From Candidatus Latescibacterota bacterium (GTDB lineage: Bacteria > JAAXHH01): DNA of 64,000 nucleotides. This document shows, piece after piece, positions 24,020-63,470 of the stretch; the first letter of the stretch is position 1; the number at the start of each line of letters is the position of its first letter. The position numbers and the translations under genes are program-made. The stretch lies in NCBI GenBank assembly GCA_022822725.1, contig JAJEAN010000007.1:1437045-1501044 (forward strand), read 5' to 3'. The notes beneath the pieces are model-generated. The model made no database searches. It was not told the origin of the DNA and worked only from the letters and a program-made list of their open reading frames with translations.

Positions 24020-25414
24020 ATGTCCCCTTACGTAACCGCCCTCCTCGTCTATTCCGTTTTCCTCATGGTGATCGGCTGGTGGACGTCGCGGTCGGTACGT
24101 CGCGCCGAGGACTTCTTCGTGGCCGGCCGGCGGCTGTCTCCCGCGCTGCTTTTTTCCACGCTGCTGGCCGCCAACCTGGGCGCGGGATCGACGGTCGGAG
24201 CCACCGGCATAGGATACACCCATGGGCTTTCCGCGTGGTGGTGGGTGGGATCCGCGGGCATCGGCAGCCTCATCCTGGGACTGACCGTGGGGCCCCGCAT
24301 GTGGCGCGTGGCCAGGGACCACAACCTCTACACGGTCGGGGATTACCTGGAACACCGTTACAGCCGCAGTGTGCGCGGTTTCATCGCCGTGCTGTTGTGG
24401 TTCGGTTCCCTGGCGATCCTGGCCGGCCAGTTCATCCCCCTGGCCTGGATTCTCAACCTGGTCCTGGGCATCCCAAAATACGTCGCCTGCCTGGCCGGCG
24501 GCGCCGTGGTGGTCGTGTATTTCACCTTCGGGGGCCTGACGTCCACCGCCCGGGTCAACATGGTCCAACTGGTCGTAAAGCTGTCCGGTTTCATCCTGGC
24601 CTTTCTCCTGATCGTCTCGGGGGGCGATCTCCTGTCCGGGGAAGGGGTGGCGAAGGCAGGTTTCACGAACTGGTTCGGGGACGATCCGTCCCGAATCTGG
24701 GCCTACTTCATCGTCCTGGTACCTGCGTTTATCATCTCGCCGGGTCTTTTGCAGAAGATCTACGGCGCACGGGACGCCCGGGCGGTCCGGCAGGGCGTAA
24801 GCGTGAACGCGGTCGCCCTCATGCTGTTCGCTTTCATTCCCGCTCTCCTCGGCATGGCGGCCTATCACGCCTTCCCGTCTCTGGATTCCCCGGACCTTGC
24901 GCTGCCCCGCCTGCTGATGGACGCCCTGCCCTTCTGGATCGGCGGACTGACCCTGGCGGCGGTGTTCTCCGCGGAGATCAGTTCCGCAGACGCCGTGCTT
25001 TTCATGCTGACGACGTCCCTGAGCCGGGACCTGTACCAGACCTACATCGAACCCGGCGCCTCCGAACAGCGCATGCTGACCGTCAGCAGAATCACGGCCG
25101 TGGTCGCTGGACTCGCCGGCGTCGCCCTTGCGGTCGTGCTGCCGGACGTCATCACGGCCCTGACCATTTTCTACAGCATACTCTCCGTGGCCCTGTTCGT
25201 ACCCCTGATCGCGGGACTCTATTCCGCCAGGCCCAGTGCGAACGGCGCCCTCATGACGATCGCCGGTTCCGTCCTGGTGATGATCCTCGTTCATATGTCC
25301 ACGAACGGAAGCGGAATGGGCGGCGTATCTCCGGCGACCTGGGGTATCGGCACGGCGGTAGTCATCATGGCACTGCACATGATGTCCCGGCGCGATGAGA
25401 AACCGGCGCGATGA
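24020..25414 (+). CDS. Sodium:solute symporter (SSS family)
   Basis: This 464-residue transporter has about 13 membrane segments with a LeuT-like fold. The opening VRRAEDFFVAGRRLSPALL is the family's TM1-TM2 junction. AANLGAGSTVGATGIGYTHG carries the sodium-site helix, and the central GGLTSTARVNMVQLVVK is typical SSS. Substrates range over sugars, proline, pantothenate and carboxylates. With a DapA-family and an Ldh2-family enzyme immediately downstream, a carboxylate or imino acid such as a hydroxyproline derivative is plausible (inference). The start region is preceded by a degenerate CGAACC hexamer repeat (23961-24008). Confidence 0.9.
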   Translation: MSPYVTALLVYSVFLMVIGWWTSRSVRRAEDFFVAGRRLSPALLFSTLLAANLGAGSTVGATGIGYTHGLSAWWWVGSAGIGSLILGLTVGPRMWRVARDHNLYTVGDYLEHRYSRSVRGFIAVLLWFGSLAILAGQFIPLAWILNLVLGIPKYVACLAGGAVVVVYFTFGGLTSTARVNMVQLVVKLSGFILAFLLIVSGGDLLSGEGVAKAGFTNWFGDDPSRIWAYFIVLVPAFIISPGLLQKIYGARDARAVRQGVSVNAVALMLFAFIPALLGMAAYHAFPSLDSPDLALPRLLMDALPFWIGGLTLAAVFSAEISSADAVLFMLTTSLSRDLYQTYIEPGASEQRMLTVSRITAVVAGLAGVALAVVLPDVITALTIFYSILSVALFVPLIAGLYSARPSANGALMTIAGSVLVMILVHMSTNGSGMGGVSPATWGIGTAVVIMALHMMSRRDEKPAR

Positions 25415-25473
25415 CGTGGGAACCTGCCGGATGAAGTCGAAACATCAACCTTAACCAATCGAAGGAGGAAGAC

Positions 25474-26364
25474 ATGCTCAACGACCTGAGGGGCGTAATC
25501 CCCCCTGCGACCACACCCTTCTCCCGGGACGGCGCCGTGGATCTCGGGGCCATGAAAGAACAGGTCAACTGGCTGATCGACCAGGGTGCGCACGGCATCG
25601 CGGTGGGCGGCAGCACCGGGGAAGGCCATACGATCGACGTCGATGAGTTCAGGGGGCTTGTGGACACGACCCTGGACGCGGCGGCGGGACGCGTGCCGGT
25701 CGTCGCCGGCATCATCGTAGACAGCACCCGCGATGCGGTCCGAAGGGGCCAGGCCATCGCCGATCTCGACGTGGCGGCGCTCCAGGTGACCCCGGTCCAC
25801 TATCTCTTCCGCCCGGACGACGATGCCATGCAGGAGCATTTCAGGGTGATGGGCGAGGAAGTGGATCAGCCCATCATCATCTACAACGTGGTGCCCTGGA
25901 GCTACCTCTCGCCGGAGTTACTGTGCCGGATCATGGACAGGGTGCCCGGCGTGGTCGGCGTCAAGCAGAGCGCCGGGGACCTGAAGCTGTTCGCCGACCT
26001 GATGATCATGGCCGACCCGGAACACCTGCTCTTCTGTGCCGTGGACGCCCTGATGTACCCGGCCTATACCCTGGGCGCCCGCGGATCGATCGCGGCCATT
26101 CTGACGGCGGCGCCCCGAGCCTCGGTGGATGTATGGGACGCGGTACAGGCGGGCGATCACGCGCGGGCCCTCGATCTGCACCGAAAACTCCTGCGACTCT
26201 GGAACGCCATGGCGGGGACGAACCTGCCGGCCTGCACCAAGTACGCCCAGACGCTGCAGGGCTGTCCCGGCCGATTTCCCCGCGCCCCCATGCAGGATGC
26301 CACCGACGAACAGAAGCAAGGTATCGAGGAAGCACTCGCGCTGCTGGGCGCACTAGACGGTTAG
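25474..26364 (+). CDS. Dihydrodipicolinate synthase/N-acetylneuraminate lyase family protein
   Basis: This 296-residue class I aldolase-fold protein has the family features: GGSTGEGHTI at 45-54, Tyr137 in IIIYNVVPW, and the Schiff-base Lys164 in VVGVKQSAGDLK. The family includes DapA, sialic-acid lyase, keto-deoxy-sugar aldolases and hydroxyproline-pathway dehydratases. The Tyr and Lys are conserved in all, so the substrate is not decided by sequence. AAGGAGGAAG precedes the ATG. It lies between an SSS symporter and an Ldh2-type dehydrogenase, a context more suited to catabolism than to lysine synthesis. Confidence 0.88.
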   Translation: MLNDLRGVIPPATTPFSRDGAVDLGAMKEQVNWLIDQGAHGIAVGGSTGEGHTIDVDEFRGLVDTTLDAAAGRVPVVAGIIVDSTRDAVRRGQAIADLDVAALQVTPVHYLFRPDDDAMQEHFRVMGEEVDQPIIIYNVVPWSYLSPELLCRIMDRVPGVVGVKQSAGDLKLFADLMIMADPEHLLFCAVDALMYPAYTLGARGSIAAILTAAPRASVDVWDAVQAGDHARALDLHRKLLRLWNAMAGTNLPACTKYAQTLQGCPGRFPRAPMQDATDEQKQGIEEALALLGALDG

Positions 26365-26403
26365 CACGACAAGTACCGCACAGGATGGAGGAATACTTCA
26401 AGC

Positions 26404-27540
26404 ATGTCCGCCTCGGATCGCAAGCCGACAACGGATCGCAGGCCCGCTTCGGATCGCAAGCCCGTTCCCGACCCGCGTCCCGTCCGCATCGAACCGGACC
26501 GGCTGGCCCGGCTCATGGACCGTATCTTCGAACGCCTGGGTCTTGAAGACGACGAAAGACAGGTGGTCGTCGAGCGGCTCATGGAGGCCTCGCTCTCCGG
26601 CTACCATTCCCACGGCGTCATGCGGATCATCATGTACACGGAGGGTATCCGAGCGGGGAACATGATCTCGGGCGCACCGCTGGACGTTCTGGGTGAGACC
26701 GTCTCCACCGTGCGCCTGGACGCCAACATGGGGATGGGCCCCTGGACGGCCACCGAGGCCATGAAGCGCGCCGTCGGCAAGGCCGCGGCGACGGGCGTCG
26801 GATGTGCGAGCGTCGTGAACGCCAACGACATCGCCCGGCTGGGGGGATACGTGGAACAGCCGGCACAAGACGGTTACATCGCGCTGCTCATGGCCAACGA
26901 CGCCGGGGGCAATCCCTGCGTGGCGCCGTGGGGCGCGACCTCGCCCCTGATGAGCACCAATCCCATGGCCGTCGGTATCCCCCGGGAAAGCGGCGACCCG
27001 GTACTCATCGACATCTCCACGGGCGTTACGTCCGAGGGCGGGTTGAAGATGCTGCGCAACAAGGGCCATGCGGTGCCCGAGGGCTGGCTTATCGACGGCG
27101 ACGGGCGGACCACGACGGATGGCGAGGCCTATTTCGCAACGCCCAGACAGGCGGCGATCCTGCCTCTGGGCAGCCTGGTTGCGGGACACAAGGGCTTTGC
27201 GCTGAGCATGCTGGTCGACGTGTTGACCGGCGGCCTGAGCGGCGCCGGCTGCAGCGGCCGATCCCCGGAGGACCTCGATCAGAACGCCCTGTTCATCCTC
27301 GTCATCGACCCGGAAATGTTCGTTTCAAGGGCTGCCCTCTCCGCCGAAGTGGATCGGCTCGTGGATAGCATCAAGGGTGCGCGCAAGGCGCCCGGCGTGG
27401 ACGAAATCCGGGTGCCGGGTGAAGGCGCCCGCCGTGAACGTGAGCGGCAACGCAGGCAGGGCATCGAAATCGATCCGCCCGTCTGGTCCGCCATTCAGGA
27501 CATCATGGACGAACTGGGCATCGGGCGGGACAGCGTGTAG
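26404..27540 (+). CDS. Malate/L-lactate dehydrogenase (Ldh2/YlbC) family oxidoreductase
   Basis: This 378-residue NAD(P)-dependent oxidoreductase has the Ldh2 fold. The catalytic histidine motif is GYHSHGVMR. MGPWTATEAMKRA and NANDIARLGGYVEQ match the family, and APWGATSPLMSTNPMAVGIP plus AGHKGFALSMLVDVLTGGLSGA bind the cofactor. Members reduce keto acids or cyclic imino acids such as pyrroline-2-carboxylate. The first 24 residues (SDRKPTTDRRPASDRKP) are repetitive and come from an 18-bp tandem repeat; the conserved domain starts at about residue 28. It completes a symporter-lyase-dehydrogenase set. The start at ATG 26404 is tentative because of the repeat. Confidence 0.88.
   Translation: MSASDRKPTTDRRPASDRKPVPDPRPVRIEPDRLARLMDRIFERLGLEDDERQVVVERLMEASLSGYHSHGVMRIIMYTEGIRAGNMISGAPLDVLGETVSTVRLDANMGMGPWTATEAMKRAVGKAAATGVGCASVVNANDIARLGGYVEQPAQDGYIALLMANDAGGNPCVAPWGATSPLMSTNPMAVGIPRESGDPVLIDISTGVTSEGGLKMLRNKGHAVPEGWLIDGDGRTTTDGEAYFATPRQAAILPLGSLVAGHKGFALSMLVDVLTGGLSGAGCSGRSPEDLDQNALFILVIDPEMFVSRAALSAEVDRLVDSIKGARKAPGVDEIRVPGEGARRERERQRRQGIEIDPPVWSAIQDIMDELGIGRDSV
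26413..26466. repeat. In-frame tandem repeat, 3 x 18 bp
   Basis: Three 18-bp units (26413, 26431, 26449) with the core CGGATCGCA lie at the 5' end of the Ldh2-family gene and preserve the frame, encoding repeated SDRKP-like residues. Any change in unit number would change only the N-terminal tail. Confidence 0.85.
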
Positions 27541-34401: not shown

Positions 34402-35517
34402 ATGTTCAAGGTAGATTCTTCAGAAAACCGCCTCATCCAGCTAGATGAACCAAGGTTCAGCGAACTGAATCTGAGAGAGCGGGAGCACCTGCAGGAATGG
34501 TTGGTGAAAACGCCGGAGGTGCTTGGCGAGGATCTCCTGGTAATCCAGAAGGAATTCGACGGCTTCAAGGACACCAGGGAAAGACTCGATCTACTTGCGC
34601 TCGATAAGGAAGGCAGGCTAGTAGTTATTGAGAACAAACTCGACGATTCGGGACGCGACGTCGTATGGCAGGCACTCAAGTACGTCGCCTATTGCTCTAG
34701 TTTGAAGAAAGCGGAGATCGTCGAAATCTATCAGAAGTATCTGGACAACTGGACTGAAGGGGAAAATGCGGTAACGAACCTGTGTGAATTCCTTGAAGTT
34801 GACGATCTCGACGACATCGTGCTGAATGCGCGCAATGATCAAAGACTAATACTGGTCGCGGCAAACTTCCGCAAGGAGGTCACGTCGACCGCTCTCTGGC
34901 TGATCGGACACGGAATCAGAGCTCAGTGTTTCAGGGTTGTGCCATACAATACTGGACAGGAACTTCTGATCGACCTGCGACAGATTATACCCACGCCCGA
35001 GGCCGCGGATTATATGATCGGGATGGCCGACAAGGAATTTGAGGAGAAGTCCATCCACCGTACTCAAACGCGACGCCACGAATTGCGGCAAGCGTTCTGG
35101 ACCAGAACATTGAAGGAACTTCGCGCCCGTGGCGTTTCCCGGTACGAGAATATCAGTCCGTCACGAGAATACTGGCTTGCGAGTCCTACGGGTGTTTCAG
35201 GATGCGGGTATAACATGATCTTTGGAAAAAACCTGGCGCGTGTGGAACTCTACCTGAATCGCTCCCGCGCGGCCGAGAATAAACGGATTTATGACCAACT
35301 TGAACAGCAAAGGCAGAATATCGAAGGTCGTTTCGGAGCAGAACTACAGTGGCAAAGATTGGATGAAAAAAGGGCATGTCGGGTTAGCTATCGGCACCCG
35401 TTCGATGGCTATGACGACGAAAACTGGCCAGAGATGACCAATTGGCTGTGCAAGTACATTGTCAAGCTGGAAGAGGCGTTATCGGAACCGCTGGACCGAC
35501 TGAACCGGGAGATGTAG
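34402..35517 (+). CDS. DUF4268-like protein with PD-(D/E)XK nuclease domain
   Basis: This 371-residue protein has an N-terminal PD-(D/E)XK domain: Asp63 in RLDLLALDKEG, Glu77 and Lys79 in VVIENKL, and a downstream Gln90 (WQALKYVAYCSSL), the full D-ExK-Q set seen in RecB-type and NucS-like nucleases. The C-terminal half (about 225-365) resembles the DUF4268 domain, with FWTRTLKELRARG and RVELYLNRSRAAENKRIYDQ. Such proteins are often found near defence and mobile genes, but their action is not established. CAGGAG stands eight bases before the ATG. The gene is visibly AT-richer than its surroundings and follows a tRNA, which suggests horizontal acquisition. Confidence 0.78.
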   Translation: MFKVDSSENRLIQLDEPRFSELNLREREHLQEWLVKTPEVLGEDLLVIQKEFDGFKDTRERLDLLALDKEGRLVVIENKLDDSGRDVVWQALKYVAYCSSLKKAEIVEIYQKYLDNWTEGENAVTNLCEFLEVDDLDDIVLNARNDQRLILVAANFRKEVTSTALWLIGHGIRAQCFRVVPYNTGQELLIDLRQIIPTPEAADYMIGMADKEFEEKSIHRTQTRRHELRQAFWTRTLKELRARGVSRYENISPSREYWLASPTGVSGCGYNMIFGKNLARVELYLNRSRAAENKRIYDQLEQQRQNIEGRFGAELQWQRLDEKRACRVSYRHPFDGYDDENWPEMTNWLCKYIVKLEEALSEPLDRLNREM

Positions 35518-38294: not shown

Positions 38295-38310
38295 CCGGAA
38301 AGGCATATCC

Positions 38311-39408
38311 ATGGACCGCATCAGGATCGGCGTGGTCGGTTGCGGCGCGATCGCCCAGATCCAGCATCTGCCCCATATCGCAGAGCTCCGTGACCGCTAC
38401 GAACTGACCGGACTCTGCGACGCGTCCGCGAAACTCGTCGACTGCATCGGCGAGCTCTACCATGTGCCCAAACGCAACCGCGTCACCCGGCACGAGGACC
38501 TCCTGGCGCTGGACCTGGACGCCGTGCTGCTCTGTTTCGCCGACCCCAAGACCGATGCGGCCGTCGCCGCACTGGACGCGGGCAAGCACGTATTCATCGA
38601 AAAACCCATGTGCTACTCGGTGCAGGAAGCGGACCGGATCATCGGGGCCGCCGAAGCTTCGGACAAGACGCTGATGGTGGGGTACATGAAGCAGCACGAT
38701 CCAGGATACCAGTTCGCCCGTGACGAGGTGCTGGCCATGCCCGACATCCGCTTCATTCAGGCCAACCACCTCCACTGCGGCAATGACCGACATCTGAGTG
38801 AATACACGCTGTACGCCTTCGATGACATTCCGAGCGAGGTAACCGAGGATACGGCGCTGCGAAGGGAGCGCGCCGTCCAGGAGGCCATCGGCGACGTGCC
38901 GGAGGCCGCGCGAAGGATCTTCTTCTCGCTCTCCGGAAGCATGATTCACGACATCAGCAGCCTGCGGGGCCTTTTCGGTCCGCCGGACCGGGTGGTCAGC
39001 GCCGAAGTCTGGCGCGGCGGAACGAGCGTCACTGCGCTGCTGGCCTACGAGAACGACGCGCGGTGCGTGGCGACGTGGACCAGCCTGCCCGAACTGTACG
39101 ATTTCAAAGAGACCCTGGAAGTCTTCGGCGCGGGGCGGCGCGTGGGCATCCGGTTCCCCACGGGGTTCGACCGGGGACTGCCGTCGCCCGTCACGGTGCA
39201 GGGTATGGACGGCGAACAGCCCTGGAAGAAGGAACTCGTCGTCAACAAGCAGAACGCCTTCAAGCTGGAACTGATCCATTTCCACGATTGTGTCGTGAAC
39301 GGGAAACCACCCATCACCGACGGATACGGCGCGCGGCAGGACCACGCCCTGTGCCGCGACATCGTCAACGCCTACCTGCGGGCCAATGACCCGCACGCAG
39401 GCGTATGA
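38311..39408 (+). CDS. Gfo/Idh/MocA family oxidoreductase
   Basis: This 365-residue NAD(P)-dependent sugar or polyol dehydrogenase-like protein has a Rossmann motif IGVVGCGAIAQIQHLPHI, the EKP cofactor/active site motif HVFIEKPMCYS, and a MKQHDPGYQFARDEV second-domain segment. The ATG at 38311 is chosen because GGAAAGG lies 8-14 bases upstream and the Rossmann strand starts at residue 5; the longer open frame runs into the tRNA fragment. It opens a forward run of isomerase, NRAMP-like transporter, a second Gfo/Idh, iolD and iolE. Oxidation of an inositol or rare sugar is the likely role; the exact substrate is unknown. Confidence 0.85.
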   Translation: MDRIRIGVVGCGAIAQIQHLPHIAELRDRYELTGLCDASAKLVDCIGELYHVPKRNRVTRHEDLLALDLDAVLLCFADPKTDAAVAALDAGKHVFIEKPMCYSVQEADRIIGAAEASDKTLMVGYMKQHDPGYQFARDEVLAMPDIRFIQANHLHCGNDRHLSEYTLYAFDDIPSEVTEDTALRRERAVQEAIGDVPEAARRIFFSLSGSMIHDISSLRGLFGPPDRVVSAEVWRGGTSVTALLAYENDARCVATWTSLPELYDFKETLEVFGAGRRVGIRFPTGFDRGLPSPVTVQGMDGEQPWKKELVVNKQNAFKLELIHFHDCVVNGKPPITDGYGARQDHALCRDIVNAYLRANDPHAGV

Positions 39409-39433: not shown

Positions 39434-40366
39434 ATGAAAATCGTCTTCTGTACCCTCACGCTGAGTGGCTATCGTTCACCTGAAGCCGCGGAGCGGGGCT
39501 ATCCCCTGGCCGAAGAGCGAAAGCCCGTATGGGACTGGCTCGTCCGCCACGGATTCGACGGGATCGACCTGGGCGAGACCTGGTTCAATTTCTACGACGC
39601 GCCGGACGATGCGCTCGTCGAACTGGGCGAGGAGGCGCGCGGCCACGGTCTCGAAATCGGCGGGCTGACCGTGCTGCGGAAGATCATCACCTGGCCGGCG
39701 CCCGAAGAGGTCCGGGCGACGAACCGGGGGCTGCTGTCCAGGGCGGTGAAAGCGGCCCAGCTCGCCGGCGCGCCGCTGGTCAACATGTCCATCTCGCCCC
39801 AGCCCTGGGAGGTGGGCGTGCGCGAGCAGGATCTGAGGGGACAGTCCGACCCCGTGGGCAGCAGCTTGCAGGCACGGGACGAGGACTACGAAGAAGCCGC
39901 CGGCGTACTGCGGTCGCTGGCGCGGGAAGCCGAACCGGCGGGTACCGAACTGACCCTGGAACTCCACCAGAACAGCATCGTTGACACCCCGGAGGGCATG
40001 CTTCGGCTGATCGACCTGGTCGGCCATCCCCTGATCAAGGCGAATCCGGACCTCGGCAATTTCTACTTCGCCTACGCGACGCCCAGGGGCGGCTGGGACG
40101 ACGTGTGCCGCATGCTCGCGCCCCATACCAACTTCTGGCACGTCAAGAACATCCAGCGGATCTACTTCCAGGAAGAAGACCGCGCGCAGCACATCAACGC
40201 GCCCCTCGGCGAGGGCATGATCGACTATCGCCGGGCGCTTCGGATCATGCGGGACGGCGGCTTCGACGGGTATATCAGCATCGAGCTGGCCACGGGCGCC
40301 GATCCCTTCAACGCGATCCTTTCCGGCAAGCGGTACCTGGAAGAAATGATGCGGGACGGGATATGA
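39434..40366 (+). CDS. Sugar phosphate isomerase/epimerase family (TIM barrel)
   Basis: This 310-residue protein of the AP-endonuclease-2-like TIM-barrel family includes xylose-isomerase-like and inosose enzymes. Visible elements are VRHGFDGIDLGETWFNF near the N-terminus, ELTLELHQNSIVDTPEG with a metal-binding Glu, LIKANPDLGNFYFAYA, and FDGYISIELATGADP near the end. The metal-ligand pattern Glu/Asp/His is typical. I start at the ATG at 39434; an ATG at 39386 in the same frame overlaps the previous gene. Its stop overlaps the next start by four bases (ATGA), so the two are translationally coupled. Substrate unknown, probably a keto-inositol or keto-sugar from the neighbouring dehydrogenase. 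Confidence 0.8.
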   Translation: MKIVFCTLTLSGYRSPEAAERGYPLAEERKPVWDWLVRHGFDGIDLGETWFNFYDAPDDALVELGEEARGHGLEIGGLTVLRKIITWPAPEEVRATNRGLLSRAVKAAQLAGAPLVNMSISPQPWEVGVREQDLRGQSDPVGSSLQARDEDYEEAAGVLRSLAREAEPAGTELTLELHQNSIVDTPEGMLRLIDLVGHPLIKANPDLGNFYFAYATPRGGWDDVCRMLAPHTNFWHVKNIQRIYFQEEDRAQHINAPLGEGMIDYRRALRIMRDGGFDGYISIELATGADPFNAILSGKRYLEEMMRDGI

Positions 40367-41595
40367 AACTGAACTTCTTCCAGATGCTCGCACTGATGGG
40401 GCCGGGGATCGCCGTAGCGGCCACGGGGGTCGGCGCCGGGGACATGATTTCGGCCACCAACGCCGGCGCGAAGTTCGGCACGGTGCTGCTGTGGGCTCTC
40501 GTCTGGGGCGCCGTGCTCAAGTTCGCCTTGAACGAAGGGGTCGGACGCTGGCAGCTCGCGACGGGCACCACGCTCCTGGAAGGCTGGGTGAAGCGCCTCG
40601 GCAGGCCCGTACAGTATTTCTTCCTGCTCTATCTCCTCATCTGGTCCTTCCTGGTCGGCGGGGGACTGCTTTCGGCCTCCGGTATCGCCGGCCACACGGT
40701 ATTCCCGGGGCTTTCGGTGGCGCAGTGGGGGGTCATCCACGCCCTGGCCGCGTGCGTCATGGTTTGGGCGGGCCGTTTCGGATTCTTTCTGACCGTCATG
40801 AAGGTGCTCGTCGGACTGATGTTCGCAAGCTTCCTGATCAGCGCCTGGGCCCTCCGGCCGGACATGGGCGACATCGTGCGCGGCATCGCCCTGCCGAGTG
40901 CGCCGTCGGGTTCGGTGGTCGCCGTATTGAGCGTCCTGGGCGGCGTGGGCGGCAGCCTGTCGGTCATGTGCTACGGCTACTGGATCCGGGAAGCCGGGCG
41001 AAATGGCGGCGAGTGGCTCAGGGGCATTCGGATCGATCTCGGCGGCGCCTATCTCCTGACGGGATTCTTCGGCATAGCCGTCATGATCCTCGGCGCGCAG
41101 ATACGTCCCGAGGCGGTGGGCATCGATATCGTCCTGGGCATGGCGGACCGGCTGGAAGCGGCGATGGGACCTTTCGGGCGGTGGTCCCTCTACCTGGGTT
41201 TCTGGGCCGCGGTCATCACCTCGGTGCTGGGCGTCTGGCAGGGCATCCCCTACCTGTTCGCCGATTTCATGGCGCTGTTCAAAAAGGCCTCCAGCGAGGC
41301 TCGCGAGGCCATGGTCCGGACCGACTCACGGTACTACCGCGGGTTCCTGCTGTTCCTGACCTTTCCGACCATGGCCCTGCTGCTTTTCGACCGGCCGGTA
41401 TCCATCGTCATCATCTACACGGTGGTCGGCGCTTTCTTCATGCCGTTCCTGGCCGGCACACTGCTGTACATGAACTCGAAACGGGACTGGGTCGGAAACC
41501 TGAAGACGGGATGGTTGCTGAACGCGCTCCTCGTCCTCGCGCTGGTCCTTTTCCTGTATCTCGGCGTCCATCAGTTGATCGACGCCCTGGGTTGA
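40363..41595 (+). CDS. NRAMP-like membrane transporter lacking the metal-site motifs
   Basis: This 410-residue protein has about 11 hydrophobic segments and overall resembles the NRAMP family (LeuT/APC fold), which normally carries Mn2+ and Fe2+. The TM1 metal motif DPGN is replaced (TGVGAGDMISATNAG) and the TM6 MPH motif is replaced (SVMCYGYWIREAG). That makes metal transport doubtful. It overlaps the upstream isomerase by four bases and lies in the middle of an inositol-type catabolic operon with no other transporter, so a polyol, sugar or their acids is a more likely cargo (inference). Fold recognition is good; function is open. Confidence 0.78.
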   Translation: MKLNFFQMLALMGPGIAVAATGVGAGDMISATNAGAKFGTVLLWALVWGAVLKFALNEGVGRWQLATGTTLLEGWVKRLGRPVQYFFLLYLLIWSFLVGGGLLSASGIAGHTVFPGLSVAQWGVIHALAACVMVWAGRFGFFLTVMKVLVGLMFASFLISAWALRPDMGDIVRGIALPSAPSGSVVAVLSVLGGVGGSLSVMCYGYWIREAGRNGGEWLRGIRIDLGGAYLLTGFFGIAVMILGAQIRPEAVGIDIVLGMADRLEAAMGPFGRWSLYLGFWAAVITSVLGVWQGIPYLFADFMALFKKASSEAREAMVRTDSRYYRGFLLFLTFPTMALLLFDRPVSIVIIYTVVGAFFMPFLAGTLLYMNSKRDWVGNLKTGWLLNALLVLALVLFLYLGVHQLIDALG

Positions 41596-41636: not shown

Positions 41637-42800
41637 TTGGCCTCGAAAATCGGCATCGGCATCATCGGCATGGGCTGGATGGGCATGGTCCACGGCCGGG
41701 CATACCACCAGGTCCGGCAGCGGTTTCCCGAAAGCGGGCTCATACCTGAACTGGTCGTCTGCGCCGACGACGTGGCGGTCCGGAGCGCGCAGGCCCGGGA
41801 CATGCTGGGATTCGCCAGGACCACCACGGACTGGCAGGAGGTCGTGGACGACCCGGACGTCTCCGTGGTCAACATCACCGCGCCCAATCATCTCCACCTG
41901 GACATGGTCCGCGCCGCCGCGGCGGCTGGCAAGCACATCTTCTGCGAGAAACCCGTGGGGCGCTCCCCCTCGGAAACGGCCGAGATCGCCCGGGCGGCCG
42001 CCGAAGCCGGCGTGCTGACCTGGGTCGGTTACAACTACCGGTGGGCGCCACTGGTGCAGCATACGCGCAGTCTCGTTTCCAGCGGCGCACTGGGCGACCT
42101 CACCCATTACCGCGGCCGGTTCTTCGCGGGGTACGCGAGCCATCCCGACGGCGTGCTCTCCTGGCGATTTCGTCGAGAGGATGCCGGAAGCGGCGCCCTG
42201 GGCGACCTCATGTCCCACGTCGTCGACATGGCCCACATGCTCGCGGGACCTATCAGGCGCGTGGTCGGGCAGCAGGCGCTGATCATCGAAGACCGGCCCG
42301 TCGCGCCGGCGGGCGAAGGCACGCACTTTTCTGTCGGAACCGGAGGATCGCGGGAAGCCGTGACCAACGAAGACTACGCCGGTGCGCTGGTGGAGTTCGA
42401 GCACGGCGCACGGGGTTCCTTCGAAGTCGACCGCGTGATCCAGGGGACGAAATGCCAGATGGCCTTCGAGATCCACGGCACGAATGGTGCGGTCCGGTGG
42501 GATTTCGAGCGGATGAACGAATTGCAGTGGTACACGGCCGACGGTCCGCAGGACGGGTTTGTCACGTTGCAAAGCGGTCCGGCGTATCCGGGGCACGTCC
42601 ACTTCAACCCGGGCCCGGCCGTGGGACTGGGATACGACGATCTCAAGGCGATCGAGACCTTTCACTTCCTGCAGTCCATCGCGGCGGGCAGGCAGGGCGA
42701 GCCGGGATTCGACGAAGCGCTGGCCGTCGCAGGCGTGCTTTCGGCCATCGAACGTTCCTGGTCGTCCGACCGATGGGAAACGGTGCGGGAAATCGGCTGA
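41637..42800 (+). CDS. Gfo/Idh/MocA oxidoreductase, inositol dehydrogenase-like
   Basis: This 387-residue NAD(P)-dependent dehydrogenase has a Rossmann motif IGIGIIGMGWMGMVHG, EKP motif HIFCEKPVGRS, and the second-domain catalytic region GYNYRWAPLVQH and LMSHVVDMAHML (Asp and His). It is the best candidate for the IolG role, oxidising myo-inositol or an isomer to a keto-inositol, because iolD and an iolE-like gene follow. The assignment is contextual; Gfo/Idh proteins are not distinguishable by eye at this level. The start is TTG at 41637, supported by GGAGCGGCGGAA just upstream. Confidence 0.83.
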   Translation: MASKIGIGIIGMGWMGMVHGRAYHQVRQRFPESGLIPELVVCADDVAVRSAQARDMLGFARTTTDWQEVVDDPDVSVVNITAPNHLHLDMVRAAAAAGKHIFCEKPVGRSPSETAEIARAAAEAGVLTWVGYNYRWAPLVQHTRSLVSSGALGDLTHYRGRFFAGYASHPDGVLSWRFRREDAGSGALGDLMSHVVDMAHMLAGPIRRVVGQQALIIEDRPVAPAGEGTHFSVGTGGSREAVTNEDYAGALVEFEHGARGSFEVDRVIQGTKCQMAFEIHGTNGAVRWDFERMNELQWYTADGPQDGFVTLQSGPAYPGHVHFNPGPAVGLGYDDLKAIETFHFLQSIAAGRQGEPGFDEALAVAGVLSAIERSWSSDRWETVREIG

Positions 42801-42862: not shown

Positions 42863-44752
42863 ATGGCATATCCCCACGATAAAGTCCGCCTGACCACGGC
42901 GCAGGCGGTGGTCAAGTACCTGTCCGTGCAATACAGCGAGCGCGACGGCGCGGAGCGTCGTTTCATCCCGGCCATATTCGGCATATTCGGCCACGGGAAC
43001 GTGGCCGGGCTGGGGCAGGCCCTTTTCGAGTACGGACAGGACCTGCCCTACCACCAGCCCTGCAACGAGCAGTCCATGGTGCACACGGCCTCGGGTTACG
43101 CCAAGGTGAGCCACCGCATGGCCACCATCGCGTGTACGGCGTCGATCGGACCGGGTTCGACCAACATGCTGTCCGGCGCGGCCACGGCCACGATCAACCG
43201 CCTGCCCGTGCTCCTGTTGCCGTCCGACTACTATGCCACCCGGTACCAGGGCCCGGTGCTGCAGGAACTCGAGCACCCGGTGTCCGCCGAAGTGAGCGTC
43301 AACGACTGCTTCCGGCCGGTCAGCCGGTTCTTCGACCGGATCAACCGGCCTGAACAACTGCTCACCGCCCTGCCGGAGGCCATGCGCGTGCTCACCGATC
43401 CGGCCGACACGGGCGCCGTGACGATCTCCCTGCCCCAGGACGTGCAGGCCCACGCCTACGACTATCCGGCCCACTTCTTCGAGAAACGGGTCTGGCGCGT
43501 AGAGCGCAGGCCGCCAACGAAAGCGCGTATCGCCGAGGCGATCGAGCTGCTGAAAGCGGCGAAGCGGCCGATGATCATCGCGGGCGGTGGCGTCCACTAC
43601 TCGGAAGCCTGGGACGCCCTCGCGGAATTCGCAGAGACCTGCGGCATCCCCGTGGGAGAGACCTTCGGCGGCAAGGGCGCCATGCGCGCATCCTCGGATT
43701 GGGCGATCGGCGCGTTCGGCGTGACCGGCACGCCGGCCGGCGCCGGCATAGCCGCCGAGGCCGACCTGGTCATCGCCGTGGGCACCCGGCTGACCGACTT
43801 CTCCACGGGCTCTCAGACCGCATTTCCCAATCCCGACGTCCGGTTCATCGGCATCAACGTGTCCGGACACGACGCCTACAAGCAGGGCGCCCTGCCGGTC
43901 ACGGCCGACGCCCGCGAAGCACTGACCGCCCTGGCGGCATCCGCGCGGGAGGCCGGTATCCGGACCAGTTCGTCCTACCGGGAAGAGGTCCGGCGCCACA
44001 TGGACGCCTACCAACGGACGCTGAAAGAAGAAGTATACGTCGACCATCCCGGCGAGGCCATGAGCCAGGCCCGGCTCATCCAGACCCTGAACGGCGAGGC
44101 CCGGGAAGGCGACTGCGTCATCGCCGCCGCCGGCAGCCCGCCGGGCGATCTGCACCGGCTCTGGGACGTTACGGGCGGCGCGGCCTGCTACCTGGAATTC
44201 GGCTATTCGTGCATGGGCTGGGAACTGCCGGCCGGCCTGGGAACCCGCATGGCCGGGAAACACAACGAGATCTTCGTCTACATCGGCGACGGCACCTACC
44301 TGATGAATCCGACCGAACTCATGACCGCCATGCAGGAGGGCCTGAAGGTGACCGTCGTCATCTCGGAGAACCACGGTTACCAGATCATCCGGGCCCTGCA
44401 GATGGGCCGGGCGGGCCGATCCTTCGGCAACGAGTTCCGGAGGCGGGATACCGGTTCGGGCCGTCTCGAAGGCGAATACCTGGAGATCGATTTCGCCGCC
44501 AACGCCAGGAGCTTCGGCGCACGGGCGTGGCACGTCAAGTCACCGGACGAGTTGCGACAGGCGCTCCGTGAAGCCCGGTCGGAGACGCGGGCCTGCGTGA
44601 TCGTGTGCGAGACCGAGAAACACCGCTACCTGCCGCCTTCCGACGTATGGTGGGACATCGCCTCGGCCGAGGCGACCAACGATCCCATGACGCGAAAGCT
44701 GCGCGAAGGATACGAGGCCGAACGGCGCACGAGCCAGCGGTTTCACTACTAG
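42863..44752 (+). CDS. iolD: 3D-(3,5/4)-trihydroxycyclohexane-1,2-dione acylhydrolase
   Basis: IolD opens the six-membered ring of the diketo-inositol by hydrolysis, giving 5-deoxy-glucuronate, and uses thiamine pyrophosphate. The 629-residue size is as expected. Near the N-terminus are FGIFGHGNVAGLGQAL and the TPP glutamate region HQPCNEQSMVHTASGYAK. The middle domain has GGGVHYSEA and GETFGGKGAM. The C-terminal TPP-binding motif is GDGTYLMNPTEL, with the partner Asn in ISENHGYQII. It is the clearest inositol gene in the window. GAAGGAG precedes the ATG by six bases. Neighbours are an IolG-like dehydrogenase and an IolE-like gene; iolB, iolC, iolA and iolJ are not here. Confidence 0.93.
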   Translation: MAYPHDKVRLTTAQAVVKYLSVQYSERDGAERRFIPAIFGIFGHGNVAGLGQALFEYGQDLPYHQPCNEQSMVHTASGYAKVSHRMATIACTASIGPGSTNMLSGAATATINRLPVLLLPSDYYATRYQGPVLQELEHPVSAEVSVNDCFRPVSRFFDRINRPEQLLTALPEAMRVLTDPADTGAVTISLPQDVQAHAYDYPAHFFEKRVWRVERRPPTKARIAEAIELLKAAKRPMIIAGGGVHYSEAWDALAEFAETCGIPVGETFGGKGAMRASSDWAIGAFGVTGTPAGAGIAAEADLVIAVGTRLTDFSTGSQTAFPNPDVRFIGINVSGHDAYKQGALPVTADAREALTALAASAREAGIRTSSSYREEVRRHMDAYQRTLKEEVYVDHPGEAMSQARLIQTLNGEAREGDCVIAAAGSPPGDLHRLWDVTGGAACYLEFGYSCMGWELPAGLGTRMAGKHNEIFVYIGDGTYLMNPTELMTAMQEGLKVTVVISENHGYQIIRALQMGRAGRSFGNEFRRRDTGSGRLEGEYLEIDFAANARSFGARAWHVKSPDELRQALREARSETRACVIVCETEKHRYLPPSDVWWDIASAEATNDPMTRKLREGYEAERRTSQRFHY

Positions 44753-44829: not shown

Positions 44830-45714
44830 GTGAACATCCGCATCGGCAGCGCGCCGGATTCCTGGGGCGTCTGGTTTCCTGACGATCCGAAGCAGACGCC
44901 GTGGCAACGGTTCATGGACGAGGTGGCCGAAGCCGGCTACCGGTGGATTGAGCTGGGACCTTTTGGGTATCTGCCGACAGATATCGACCGGTTGCAACGG
45001 GAACTGGCGGCGCGGGACCTGAAGGTGACCAGTGCGTTCGCCATGGGGAACCTCGAGGATCCGGACCGCTGGCCCGAATTGGAACAGCAGGTGGTGGGCG
45101 CGGGAGCACTGCTGGCCGCCACCGGCGCCGGATTTCTCGTCCTGATCGACGGGACCTACTCCGACTTGTTCACCGGCGAATTGATCGAGCCCCGGACCCT
45201 GGACGACGATAACTGGCGGCGCCTGGTCGACACGACTCACCGTGTCGCCGATCTCGCCCGGGAGGCCCATGGGCTCCATCTCGTGTTCCACCCCCACGCG
45301 GAGACCCACGTCGAATACGAGGAGCAGATCGAGCGATTCCTGGCGGACACCGACCCCGGACGGGTGTCGCTGTGTTTCGACGTGGGCCACCACGCCTACC
45401 GCGGCGGCGATCCGGTAGCCTTCCTCGATAGACACCGCGACCGGATCCCCTACCTGCATCTCAAGAGCGTGGATCCGGTGAAACAGCAGAAGGTGGAAGC
45501 CGAGCACATTCCCTTTGCCGACGCGGTGGCCATGGACATGTTCTGCGAACCCTCGTCGGGCCTGGTCGACTTTCCTGCGCTGCTCGGGCTGTTGAAGCGG
45601 ATCGACTACGACGGTTACGCCATCGTGGAACAGGACATGTATCCGGCGCCTTTCGACAAACCCTTCCCGATCGCGAAGCGGACGCTGGAGTATCTGCGGG
45701 CCATCGGATTTTAA
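44830..45714 (+). CDS. iolE: Inosose dehydratase-like TIM-barrel protein (IolE-like)
   Basis: This 294-residue TIM-barrel protein starts IGSAPDSWGVWFPDDPKQTP, the family hallmark of IolE (2-keto-myo-inositol dehydratase). It contains the metal-ligand stretch VFHPHAETHVEYEEQ, CFDVGHHAYRGGD, YLHLKSVDP and YAIVEQDMYP, giving Glu/Asp/His ligands. IolE makes the diketone that IolD uses, so its place after iolD is logical. IolH and other isomerases of this fold are alternatives. The start is GTG at 44830 with AGGAGGA four bases upstream; an overlapping out-of-frame ATG is ignored. It is the last gene of the polyol run. Confidence 0.86.
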   Translation: MNIRIGSAPDSWGVWFPDDPKQTPWQRFMDEVAEAGYRWIELGPFGYLPTDIDRLQRELAARDLKVTSAFAMGNLEDPDRWPELEQQVVGAGALLAATGAGFLVLIDGTYSDLFTGELIEPRTLDDDNWRRLVDTTHRVADLAREAHGLHLVFHPHAETHVEYEEQIERFLADTDPGRVSLCFDVGHHAYRGGDPVAFLDRHRDRIPYLHLKSVDPVKQQKVEAEHIPFADAVAMDMFCEPSSGLVDFPALLGLLKRIDYDGYAIVEQDMYPAPFDKPFPIAKRTLEYLRAIGF

Positions 45715-60649: not shown

Positions 60650-60860
60650 CCTGGTGATTTACACGGCGAACTACCCGGTGCGATCTACACGGCGCGATCT
60701 ACGCGGCGATCAATCTGGCGATCTACGTGGCGATCACTCTGGCGATCGATCTAATCCGGCGATCTACCCGGCGCGACCTACACGGCGCGACCTACACGGC
60801 GCGACCTTCCCGGCGATTCTCGAGGCCGGTGGTCACTCGGCGATCTACCCAGTGATTCTC
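60650..60860. repeat. Degenerate tandem array of 12-14 bp units
   Basis: About fifteen head-to-tail units of 12 or 14 bases follow patterns such as ACACGGCGCGATCT, ACGCGGCGATCA and ATCTGGCGATCT. Three adjacent units near 60768-60809 are nearly identical. The array continues into the 3' end of the MFS gene, whose stop codon (60845-60847) lies inside it. It is the largest repeat in the window. Confidence 0.9.
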
Positions 60861-62176
60861 AGGAGCGGTACTCGCCGGAGCCATATCAGGCACGCTATAC
60901 CAGCCAGGGCCAGGACGCCGTTGAAACTGAATACCAGTATCCACGCCGACTGCACGGTGGCATAGTCGAGAATCGATCCCGCCAGAACAGGCGCACCGGT
61001 TCCCGCCACGAATCCGATGAAGGACTGCAGAGCCTGCGCGGAACCAACCAGGTTTCTCGGGGCGAGTTCCGTGACGGCGGTCGAGTAGATGGCGGAATCG
61101 GCGGCCGTAAAGAATCCGTATAGAAATCCCAGCACGACGAGGTACGTAAACGGCAATCCAACCAGCCAGCCGGCCAGGAATGAACAGATCCCGCTGACTG
61201 TGAAAATAAGCGTCGCGGTCCGGGTTCTTCCGAAGCGATCCGACGCCCAGCCGCCGAGCAGCACGCTGAGAATGCCGGTCATGAACATCAGGCCGGCCAG
61301 CGTGGCGGCACGCGAAGCCGCGTTGTCCGGATCAACTCCTCCCAGCATGAGCGCGGCGCCGAGAAGCAGCGGCAGCCACAGGCGCGCCAGGAAGAGCTCG
61401 GCTGTGTGCAGCGCGTACGCCACGATTACCAGAACCAGCCGGCGGTCTCGGAGCGGCGCCAGGCTCAGCCAGCCGCCGTTCCCGGAGACTTCGGCCTTCC
61501 CGGAGCCATCGGCGTCCCCGCGATCGTTTACGTTGCTGAGTCCGTCGCCGCGTCCGAGGCTATCCACCACGCTCGGTGACCGTGCAATTCGCCCAGACGC
61601 AAGAAACGCGGCAATACCAATGCTCGCCAGGCCAGGCAACGTGGTCACCAGAAAAGCCGGCTCCCATCCGTCTATCCTTCCCAGGAGTATGCCCATGAAA
61701 AGGTACGATACCGTCGTGCCGGCGTAACCCGAGCCCACGAAGACGCTTACGGCCGTCGCCCTGCGCCCTCCGGCAAACCGGTGCGACACCAGGCGGATGC
61801 CCGTGATGTAAACACACACATGGCCGACACCATAAATGAATCGCAACAGGGAAGCAGTCCAAAGTCCCTCCGCCAGCAGGGGAAACAGGAACCCGCTGCA
61901 TGCCGTCAGCACAACGCCGATGATCAGGATACCAAATGGACTGAATCGGTCGGTGAAGGGTACGAGTACCAGGGACGAAACGGCATATCCTGCCAGGTAC
62001 GCGGAAAAGATCAGGCCGGACTGGGTGTTGTTCAGTCCCCATTCCGAGCGGATGAACGGAAGGGACGCGACATAACTCGAGGAGGACAGCAGGATGAGAA
62101 ACAGCACGCCGCTCAACCCGGCGAGCCAGGCTATGTCGGACCAGGAGGTCTGTGCGGCGCCGCTTCGATGGTTCAT
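60845..62176 (-). CDS. Major facilitator superfamily transporter
   Basis: This 443-residue protein has 12 predicted membrane segments and MFS signatures: the loop 2-3 motif VLVPFTDRFSPFG, and the repeat motif WASDRFGRTRTA between TM8 and TM9. An interdomain loop at about 205-235 is rich in Gly/Asp (DGLSNVNDRGDADGSGKAEVSGN). The substrate is not indicated. The last residues (RRVPLLRITG) are read within the repeat array, so the C-terminus may vary between strains. Confidence 0.85.
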   Translation of the reverse strand: MNHRSGAAQTSWSDIAWLAGLSGVLFLILLSSSSYVASLPFIRSEWGLNNTQSGLIFSAYLAGYAVSSLVLVPFTDRFSPFGILIIGVVLTACSGFLFPLLAEGLWTASLLRFIYGVGHVCVYITGIRLVSHRFAGGRRATAVSVFVGSGYAGTTVSYLFMGILLGRIDGWEPAFLVTTLPGLASIGIAAFLASGRIARSPSVVDSLGRGDGLSNVNDRGDADGSGKAEVSGNGGWLSLAPLRDRRLVLVIVAYALHTAELFLARLWLPLLLGAALMLGGVDPDNAASRAATLAGLMFMTGILSVLLGGWASDRFGRTRTATLIFTVSGICSFLAGWLVGLPFTYLVVLGFLYGFFTAADSAIYSTAVTELAPRNLVGSAQALQSFIGFVAGTGAPVLAGSILDYATVQSAWILVFSFNGVLALAGIACLIWLRRVPLLRITG

Positions 62177-62369: not shown

Positions 62370-63470
62370 CTACCCGCTGGAAACGTCACCGACGCTGTTG
62401 TGAATCAGTTCCGCTACGATACGAATCTTCTCCGTTACGGAGTTCAGTACCGCGTCAAATTCGACTTCGGTGGGCAAAAGAATTGGGACGAGTAAGGTGG
62501 AGCCTTCATCGAAACATTCGGGAGGGTCCTTTTGCATCAAGGGCCTCAGAACCTCCCGAGTACGGTCTATCGGAACCGAATTGATCTCTGTCCACTGTTC
62601 AAAGTGCAACCAGAGCGGAGTATCGGGATATTCACCCCGGGCCCAACTGCCGGAATCTATACCGAACCACGTACCAGTACCGGCAATACGCAAGTATCGT
62701 CCGTAACCCCTGTACTTCGGGGTGATCCGCAAACCGTCGATATCTGCGCATCCGTACTCAACCGCCCGCGTTGTTGAGTCGTCGACCAGTTGCCTAAGTC
62801 CATTCAGGCGCCGTGGAAACCTGGGCGCCAATTCCTCTGGACCAATCGGTGGAAATTCACTTTCATCTATTCTTTTAACAAAACCCTTGAGTTGTTTGAT
62901 CTCGTCGATCATTTCCGAGTCGACAGCGTTATCGAGGCGATTTAGTAGATCCGGCCAACTGGTTAACATCAGGTACTTTGGCCGGGAATCCTCTACAATT
63001 ACGCTGGTACTCTTGAATTCTGTATTGACTAAACTACGGATCGTACCGACAGCACCTGCCAGGCGCTGCAGTTCTGCCCAAAGCGTTTCGGTCCTGGAGA
63101 CAGGCGCGACGAACAATAAGGTTTTTGCTTTATCTGTTTCACTTGCCTCCAGTCGTTCAAGATATGCATTCGGCTGATTTCCGGTAAGTCCGGCCCAGAA
63201 CTTCGCTTCGATGATCAGGCACTCGTTGCTATTTCGATCAAATCCGACCAGATCGGGTCGCGTCCCGTCCTCGCCACCTACTTGTGTCAGGACACTACTT
63301 ATTTCCCCTATATCCGCGCCGCCGACTCTTGCCAACTCCCCCAAGACCTTCCGAGCGGCAGCGGACTTCAAAATGTACCCAAGTGCTTCCACAGCGACAT
63401 CTTCGTGCCGCGACGAAAGCATCCAGGCAAGATGAGCAAGCAATGAATCATCTTTCGTGTTTTTTATCAC
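62370..63470 (-). CDS. Large orphan PD-(D/E)XK nuclease-like protein
   Basis: This 366-residue protein has an N-terminal PD-(D/E)XK domain: a glutamate helix (HEDVAVEALGYIL, Glu28), Asp73 in TRPDLVGFDRN, Glu88 and Lys90 in CLIIEAKFWAG, and a following Gln99 (TGNQPNAYLERL). These fit the Q-containing variant seen in restriction-like and virus-defence proteins. The C-terminal part (about 215-366) is of unknown fold with a WFGIDSGSWARGEYPDTPLW aromatic cluster. Codon use is AT-richer than the neighbouring MFS gene. The start is GTG at 63470, with AAAGGA eight bases upstream. No partner gene is visible. Confidence 0.68.
   Translation of the reverse strand: MIKNTKDDSLLAHLAWMLSSRHEDVAVEALGYILKSAAARKVLGELARVGGADIGEISSVLTQVGGEDGTRPDLVGFDRNSNECLIIEAKFWAGLTGNQPNAYLERLEASETDKAKTLLFVAPVSRTETLWAELQRLAGAVGTIRSLVNTEFKSTSVIVEDSRPKYLMLTSWPDLLNRLDNAVDSEMIDEIKQLKGFVKRIDESEFPPIGPEELAPRFPRRLNGLRQLVDDSTTRAVEYGCADIDGLRITPKYRGYGRYLRIAGTGTWFGIDSGSWARGEYPDTPLWLHFEQWTEINSVPIDRTREVLRPLMQKDPPECFDEGSTLLVPILLPTEVEFDAVLNSVTEKIRIVAELIHNSVGDVSSG

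Follow-up and report, generated by a model that had tools for sequence, protein, structure and literature searches.

An outgroup of proteins without the metal ligands is regarded as the stock from which the NRAMP metal carriers arose. Where such proteins have catabolic neighbours their substrate becomes directly testable, with a bearing on how a LeuT-fold carrier turned into a metal carrier. One such case is found in a stretch of 64,000 nucleotides (the window) from contig JAJEAN010000007.1 of a Latescibacterota MAG (GCA_022822725.1), whose closest named matches, with 90-95% identity, are MAGs labelled either Candidatus Latescibacterota or Gemmatimonadetes. The initial annotation described an NRAMP-fold transporter devoid of metal ligands inside a polyol catabolic operon, and suggested that it may carry an inositol or sugar instead of a metal ion. 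What, then, does this protein transport?

The open reading frame at 40363-41595 (+) is uninterrupted and encodes a full-length PF01566 member of 410 aa, as established by Pfam, NCBIfam, alignment and tree analyses. The Pfam Nramp profile matched residues 30-383 with 120.9 bits (gathering cut-off 29.8; E=8.6e-35); with 155 bits, the protein also exceeded the 50-bit cut-off of NF037982, the NCBIfam model for 'Nramp family divalent metal transporter'. The profile of the clade to which this protein belongs, here referred to as the GAGD clade, was aligned to Slc11 by hhalign with 99.2% probability over 386 columns, and NRAMP-family chains were the sole matches in PDB searches with the protein; on these two grounds, the NRAMP fold assignment is sound. 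An AlphaFold2 model built from seven sequences had a pLDDT of 45.7, too low for it to be used.

Metal-site residues were compared in an alignment of the protein with E. coli MntH and 92 further PF01566 proteins, in which 35 sequences from several phyla represented the GAGD clade. The MntH TM1 ligands D and N correspond to G24 and D27, and the TM6 ligands A, M and H to G194, G197 and L199. Consequently, TM1 reads GVGAGDM instead of the IDPGN of MntH, the motif G24-A25-G26-D27 (40432-40443, +) replacing DPGN; in TM6, the segment G194-L199 (GVGGSL, 40942-40959, +) stands where MntH has A(TI)MPH, so that G194, G197, S198 and L199 do not conform to the A..MPH pattern of Slc11, and GSL takes the place of MPH. 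The annotated absence of both DPGN and MPH is therefore confirmed. Every known NRAMP metal ligand is replaced, and the replacements are nearly fixed clade-wide: G24 and D27 were present in 34/34 members and G194 and G197 in 34/35, and the position of the MntH His was hydrophobic in 34 of 34-35. The first TM1 Asp, kept in all 13 NRMT-type sequences, is a Gly in the GAGD clade. Conversely, D27, E58, Y204, Y206 and W207 are invariant or nearly so within the clade and E210 is found in most members, the TM6 residues composing the motif Y204-G-Y206-W207-I-R-E210 (40972-40992, +). The TM6 cysteine C203 was considered as a metal ligand and discarded, this position being A or S in relatives outside Latescibacterota.

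Trees built from 75 and 76 PF01566 sequences placed the protein outside the Slc11 clade, together with homologues from a KSB1 bacterium, Bacilli, Alphaproteobacteria and Actinobacteria displaying 51 to 31% identity. A branch with 100% support (FastTree 0.999) separates the GAGD clade from Slc11, from NRMT and from the two PxpA-linked NRAMPs sampled, which are located on Klebsiella and Lactiplantibacillus plasmids; the same branch also sets off the ligand-less clades with TM1 types GSGE, SHLVQST, GTGS and GPGS. No further relatives were found in the scan of viral contigs. A search of the source genome revealed no Slc11 protein of the canonical DPGN/MPH type, and two further ligand-less PF01566 proteins are encoded there. 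One of them (TM1 GSGELIATT) adjoins HyuB/HyuA hydantoinase/oxoprolinase genes (G000:C9:261001-278000; L050 7868-13059), an arrangement that recurs in another genome (G008, L056); the other, PF01566-like, has GSGELIWW in TM1 and LSYWMRDKG in TM6 (G000:C4:8000-17000; L203 3410-5005, minus strand).

The gene had been annotated as lying between iolD and iolE; instead, the actual order, all on the plus strand, is GfoA, isoB, NRAMP, GfoC, iolD and iolE. GfoA (38308-39408) is a Gfo/Idh/MocA oxidoreductase identified by profile match and as a conserved neighbour; isoB (39434-40366, with an assumed start codon in a frame that opens at 39386) encodes a xylose-isomerase-like TIM barrel (AP_endonuc_2); GfoC (41637-42800) is, by profile match, a second Gfo/Idh/MocA oxidoreductase, levoglucosan-dehydrogenase-like below the cut-off; IolD (42863-44752), a trihydroxycyclohexane-1,2-dione hydrolase, scored 815.6 bits with TIGR04377 (cut-off 715); and an IolE-like protein of the inosose dehydratase family (44830-45714) reached 172 of the 290 bits set for TIGR04379. 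Twelve genomes of the genus (two of them with incomplete contigs) share this order from GfoA to iolE, as do other genera as far as their contigs extend, with NRAMP identity down to 64%; the arrangement thus spans three families of Latescibacterota. In one genome, a gene that by eye is phytanoyl-CoA-dioxygenase-like lies between NRAMP and GfoC. The translational coupling to the isomerase that had been noted is seen here as a 4-bp overlap of the NRAMP ATG with the isomerase TGA (ATGA, 40363-40366); as a conserved trait it was rejected, such an overlap occurring in just 4 of 12 other Latescibacterota loci with both genes.

The surroundings of the operon contain little that points elsewhere. The claim that no other transporter is present is borne out between 38308 and about 50 kb but not for the window at large, where the nearest other carriers seen are a sodium:solute symporter (24020-25414) and an MFS carrier (60845-62176). 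The symporter belongs to a second catabolic string (24020-27540), with a DHDPS-family aldolase/lyase and a member of the malate/L-lactate dehydrogenase family. Elsewhere in the window, a DUF4268 protein (34402-35517) has an N-terminal half that by eye is nuclease-like, and a similar-looking protein is encoded at 62370-63470. No metal riboswitch was detected between 34 and 50 kb, a tRNA being the sole Rfam RNA there; no metal genes were found near the NRAMP-like gene, and no MgtE_N gene beside it.

Regarding the pathway itself, the IolB family (PF04962) is absent from 16/16 Latescibacterota genomes, the source genome included, and DUF2090, a domain that is part of only some IolC proteins, is absent from 15 of the 16. 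The pathway is therefore not the textbook version: the idea that the classical inositol pathway is complete was dropped for want of IolB, and for the same reason 'myo-inositol' as the substrate is unproven. IolD is intact in these genomes despite the missing IolB, which leaves a gap in the pathway after IolD; a candidate stand-in for IolB is isoB, as a second barrel of the xylose-isomerase-like type. The description 'polyol operon' is accordingly upheld by IolD, which exceeds its cut-off, and weakened by the IolE-like protein, which falls under its own, and by the absence of IolB from the genome.

Outside Latescibacterota, neighbouring genes were counted with a simple gene caller in ~290 diverse genomes, with 25 of 80 families listed, so that the counts are indicative rather than exhaustive. 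In canonical and NRMT groups, MgtE_N plus CBS proteins made up 12/33 partners among the matches listed; since this reproduces the published link between NRMT and MgtE_N (PMC4072509), it serves as a positive control for the procedure. No GAGD-clade member was found beside metal-homeostasis genes, the setting that the initial annotation had named as contrary to its proposal, and no pxp genes were found near GAGD-clade loci. Neither were iol genes found beside clade members outside Latescibacterota in the loci searched, and the notion of the GAGD clade as generally inositol-linked was discarded. Of 10 loci fetched from one actinobacterial family, 8 have a gamma-glutamyltranspeptidase gene close to the clade gene, with HyuB/HyuA adjacent as well in one of these; the clade members on Mesobacillus and Rhodococcus plasmids are located, respectively, beside CoA-transferase and thiolase genes, and beside an amidase gene accompanied by an Lrp-type regulator; and many other clade genes stand alone. 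In actinobacterial family f227 (L174-L187), the clade NRAMP gene shares an operon with, or lies close to, genes for gamma-glutamyltranspeptidase and a QueT transporter, and L174 also has a QueF-like gene. These loci may be connected with the breakdown of glutathione or with queuosine salvage.

For the other ligand-less PF01566 clades, partners among the matches listed were mostly catabolic, including AP_endonuc_2, HyuA/HyuB, GH2, GH20, GH28, GH77, alpha-L-fucosidase, 3-keto-disaccharide hydrolase, enolase-type and sugar-acid enzymes, SDR and amidase. At one locus (L111 3-4583), HyuA and HyuB come immediately after a GPGT-type PF01566 gene within a single operon. The lone metal-type neighbour among the matches listed for ligand-less clades is a FeoB-like GTPase gene that adjoins a GSGE-type gene (L112 2-595).

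Because the metal ligands are lost and the gene shares a conserved operon with genes for the breakdown of inositol, import of a sugar-like compound rather than a metal is the probable function. Our working proposal, which we consider more likely than not, is that the ligand-less NRAMP imports, in a cation-coupled manner, an organic substrate of its operon, probably a cyclitol or sugar. That the substrate is organic is quite likely; that it belongs to this particular operon is reasonably probable; that it is myo-inositol itself is doubtful. As a secondary transporter of the NRAMP/LeuT fold, from a bacterial clade without the metal site, the protein would use H+ or Na+ to drive the import of a polyhydroxylated substrate, either an inositol or other cyclitol or else a related sugar or a derivative of one, which would then be oxidised by GfoA/GfoC, dehydrated by the IolE-like protein and hydrolysed by IolD. 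D27 in TM1, E58 in TM2 and the Y-G-Y-W motif in TM6 may form a new substrate site. The annotated idea of an inositol or sugar carrier thus gains from the clade-wide loss of ligands and from the iolD/iolE linkage over three families, and is tempered by the missing IolB and by the lack of iol genes at the clade loci searched outside Latescibacterota. More broadly, and only tentatively, several ligand-less PF01566 clades, GAGD included, might form a sector of the NRAMP superfamily that does not transport metals and might carry sugars, cyclitols, sugar acids, hydantoins and 5-oxoproline, in which case the Latescibacterota protein would be the first NRAMP-fold cyclitol importer.

Metal supply has to be weighed against this proposal, namely that Mn2+ or another divalent ion is imported via a remodelled site (D27 and others) for metal-dependent enzymes of the operon. 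A requirement for Mn2+ or Co2+ is common among IolE-type inosose dehydratases and xylose-isomerase-like barrels, Mn-dependence being frequent among TIM-barrel isomerases in general, and the operon encodes two AP_endonuc_2 proteins, with more of them beside other outgroup NRAMPs. Moreover, no canonical Slc11 was found in the genome, so another kind of Mn importer would be needed, and the FeoB-like neighbour at one outgroup locus weighs against our proposal. There are also precedents in YcsG, for which Mn2+ import has been claimed although its operon is catabolic (PMC10448178), and in A. capsulatum NrmT, which restored Mn uptake (PMC4072509). Nevertheless, we regard metal supply as unlikely, given that all known ligands have been lost, even the Asp that the NRMT-type group retains, that clade relatives occur beside enzymes without an obvious Mn need (gamma-glutamyltranspeptidase, thiolase, amidase), and that no metal-responsive RNA was found upstream of the NRAMP-like gene.

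The substrate could also be organic without being the ring compound of this operon: an amino-acid-like compound or carboxylate of the 5-oxoproline, hydantoin or keto acid type, or else a product of the pathway that is exported, with the position among iol genes reflecting co-regulation. The relatives beside gamma-glutamyltranspeptidase, HyuA/HyuB (one genome), CoA-transferase/thiolase, and amidase with an Lrp-type regulator speak for such a carrier, as do the second PF01566 protein of the source genome next to HyuA/HyuB and the precedent of PxpT (PMC13274462). Yet in Latescibacterota the iol linkage is stable down to 64% identity with the NRAMP gene inside the gene string, where no gamma-glutamyl or oxoproline genes were found, and a non-ring substrate consequently appears improbable. 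Finally, loss of the known ligands would also be expected of a protein that is no longer a transporter and acts as a membrane sensor or scaffold; the full-length PF01566 domain, the conserved polar residues in TM1 and TM6 and the lack of any extra domain render this very improbable. Import of a cyclitol or sugar thus remains our preferred reading. If the ligand-less sector does consist of organic carriers, many 'divalent metal transporter' annotations would be misnamed, and the passing on of the name 'Nramp family divalent metal transporter' to proteins without a metal site is in itself a warning.

Earlier work has already covered the fold, the existence of an orphan outgroup and an organic function in one NRAMP relative. 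Conversely, a literature search with thin coverage of subscription papers yielded no earlier report of an inositol- or sugar-linked NRAMP, of an iol-type operon with a ligand-less NRAMP as a fixed member, or of a repeated catabolic context of several ligand-less clades. The 'unusual use of the fold' put forward in the initial annotation must be qualified, since an organic substrate has precedent in PxpT (PMC13274462) and the orphan outgroup has been described (PMC10606218, PMC9606685). According to the parts of Cellier's work available to us, PF01566 has a ligand-less 'orphan' outgroup of Slc11 that lacks the Slc11 metal and proton residues, was defined from few sequences and has no substrate assigned (PMC10606218, PMC9606685). 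The Latescibacterota protein falls in this outgroup by its features (PF01566, no Slc11 ligands, not NRMT) rather than by a match to published sequences; the GAGD clade shares with it the family and the ligand loss, and the tie to iol genes is its own.

Among characterized relatives, C. glutamicum needs PxpT, a member of the NRAMP family, in order to grow on 5-oxoproline (PMC13274462). PxpT and YcsG resemble our case as NRAMP-family proteins of a catabolic operon, PxpT being one on which growth on an organic substrate depends. The B. subtilis homologue YcsG, in turn, is reported to raise cellular Mn and to have a promoter bound by MntR and was renamed MntG, and the same authors considered that earlier 5-oxoproline work was possibly affected by polar effects (PMC10448178). 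The two PxpA-linked NRAMPs sampled differ from our protein in their ~23-26% identity, separate branch and TM1 (GPGF vs GAGD); the partner genes of PxpT are those of 5-oxoprolinase whereas the Latescibacterota partners are iol genes, and our protein neither clusters with pxpA-linked NRAMPs nor lies beside pxpABC. The Slc11/MntH Mn2+/Fe2+:H+ symporters have the same fold by profile, E. coli MntH being ~29% identical locally, but their ligands are intact whereas all are replaced in the GAGD clade, and the clades are separate. The NRMT Mg2+ transporters (PMC4072509) likewise share PF01566 and an altered TM1 and TM6; however, the NRMT-type group keeps the TM1 Asp and pairs with MgtE_N genes, neither of which applies to the GAGD clade, and the combination of a DNDAGG-type TM1 motif, an MgtE_N-domain partner and an M-box is not displayed by our locus. 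As for the iol operons of Bacillus and Proteobacteria, the Latescibacterota locus does not hold the full classical set of IolG, IolE, IolD, IolB, IolC and IolJ, of which IolD is confirmed; it resembles them in its true IolD, IolE-like protein and Gfo/Idh dehydrogenases, and differs from them in lacking IolB, in the absence of the DUF2090 domain from 15 of the 16 genomes and in that a PF01566 carrier replaces the MFS, SSF or ABC carrier.
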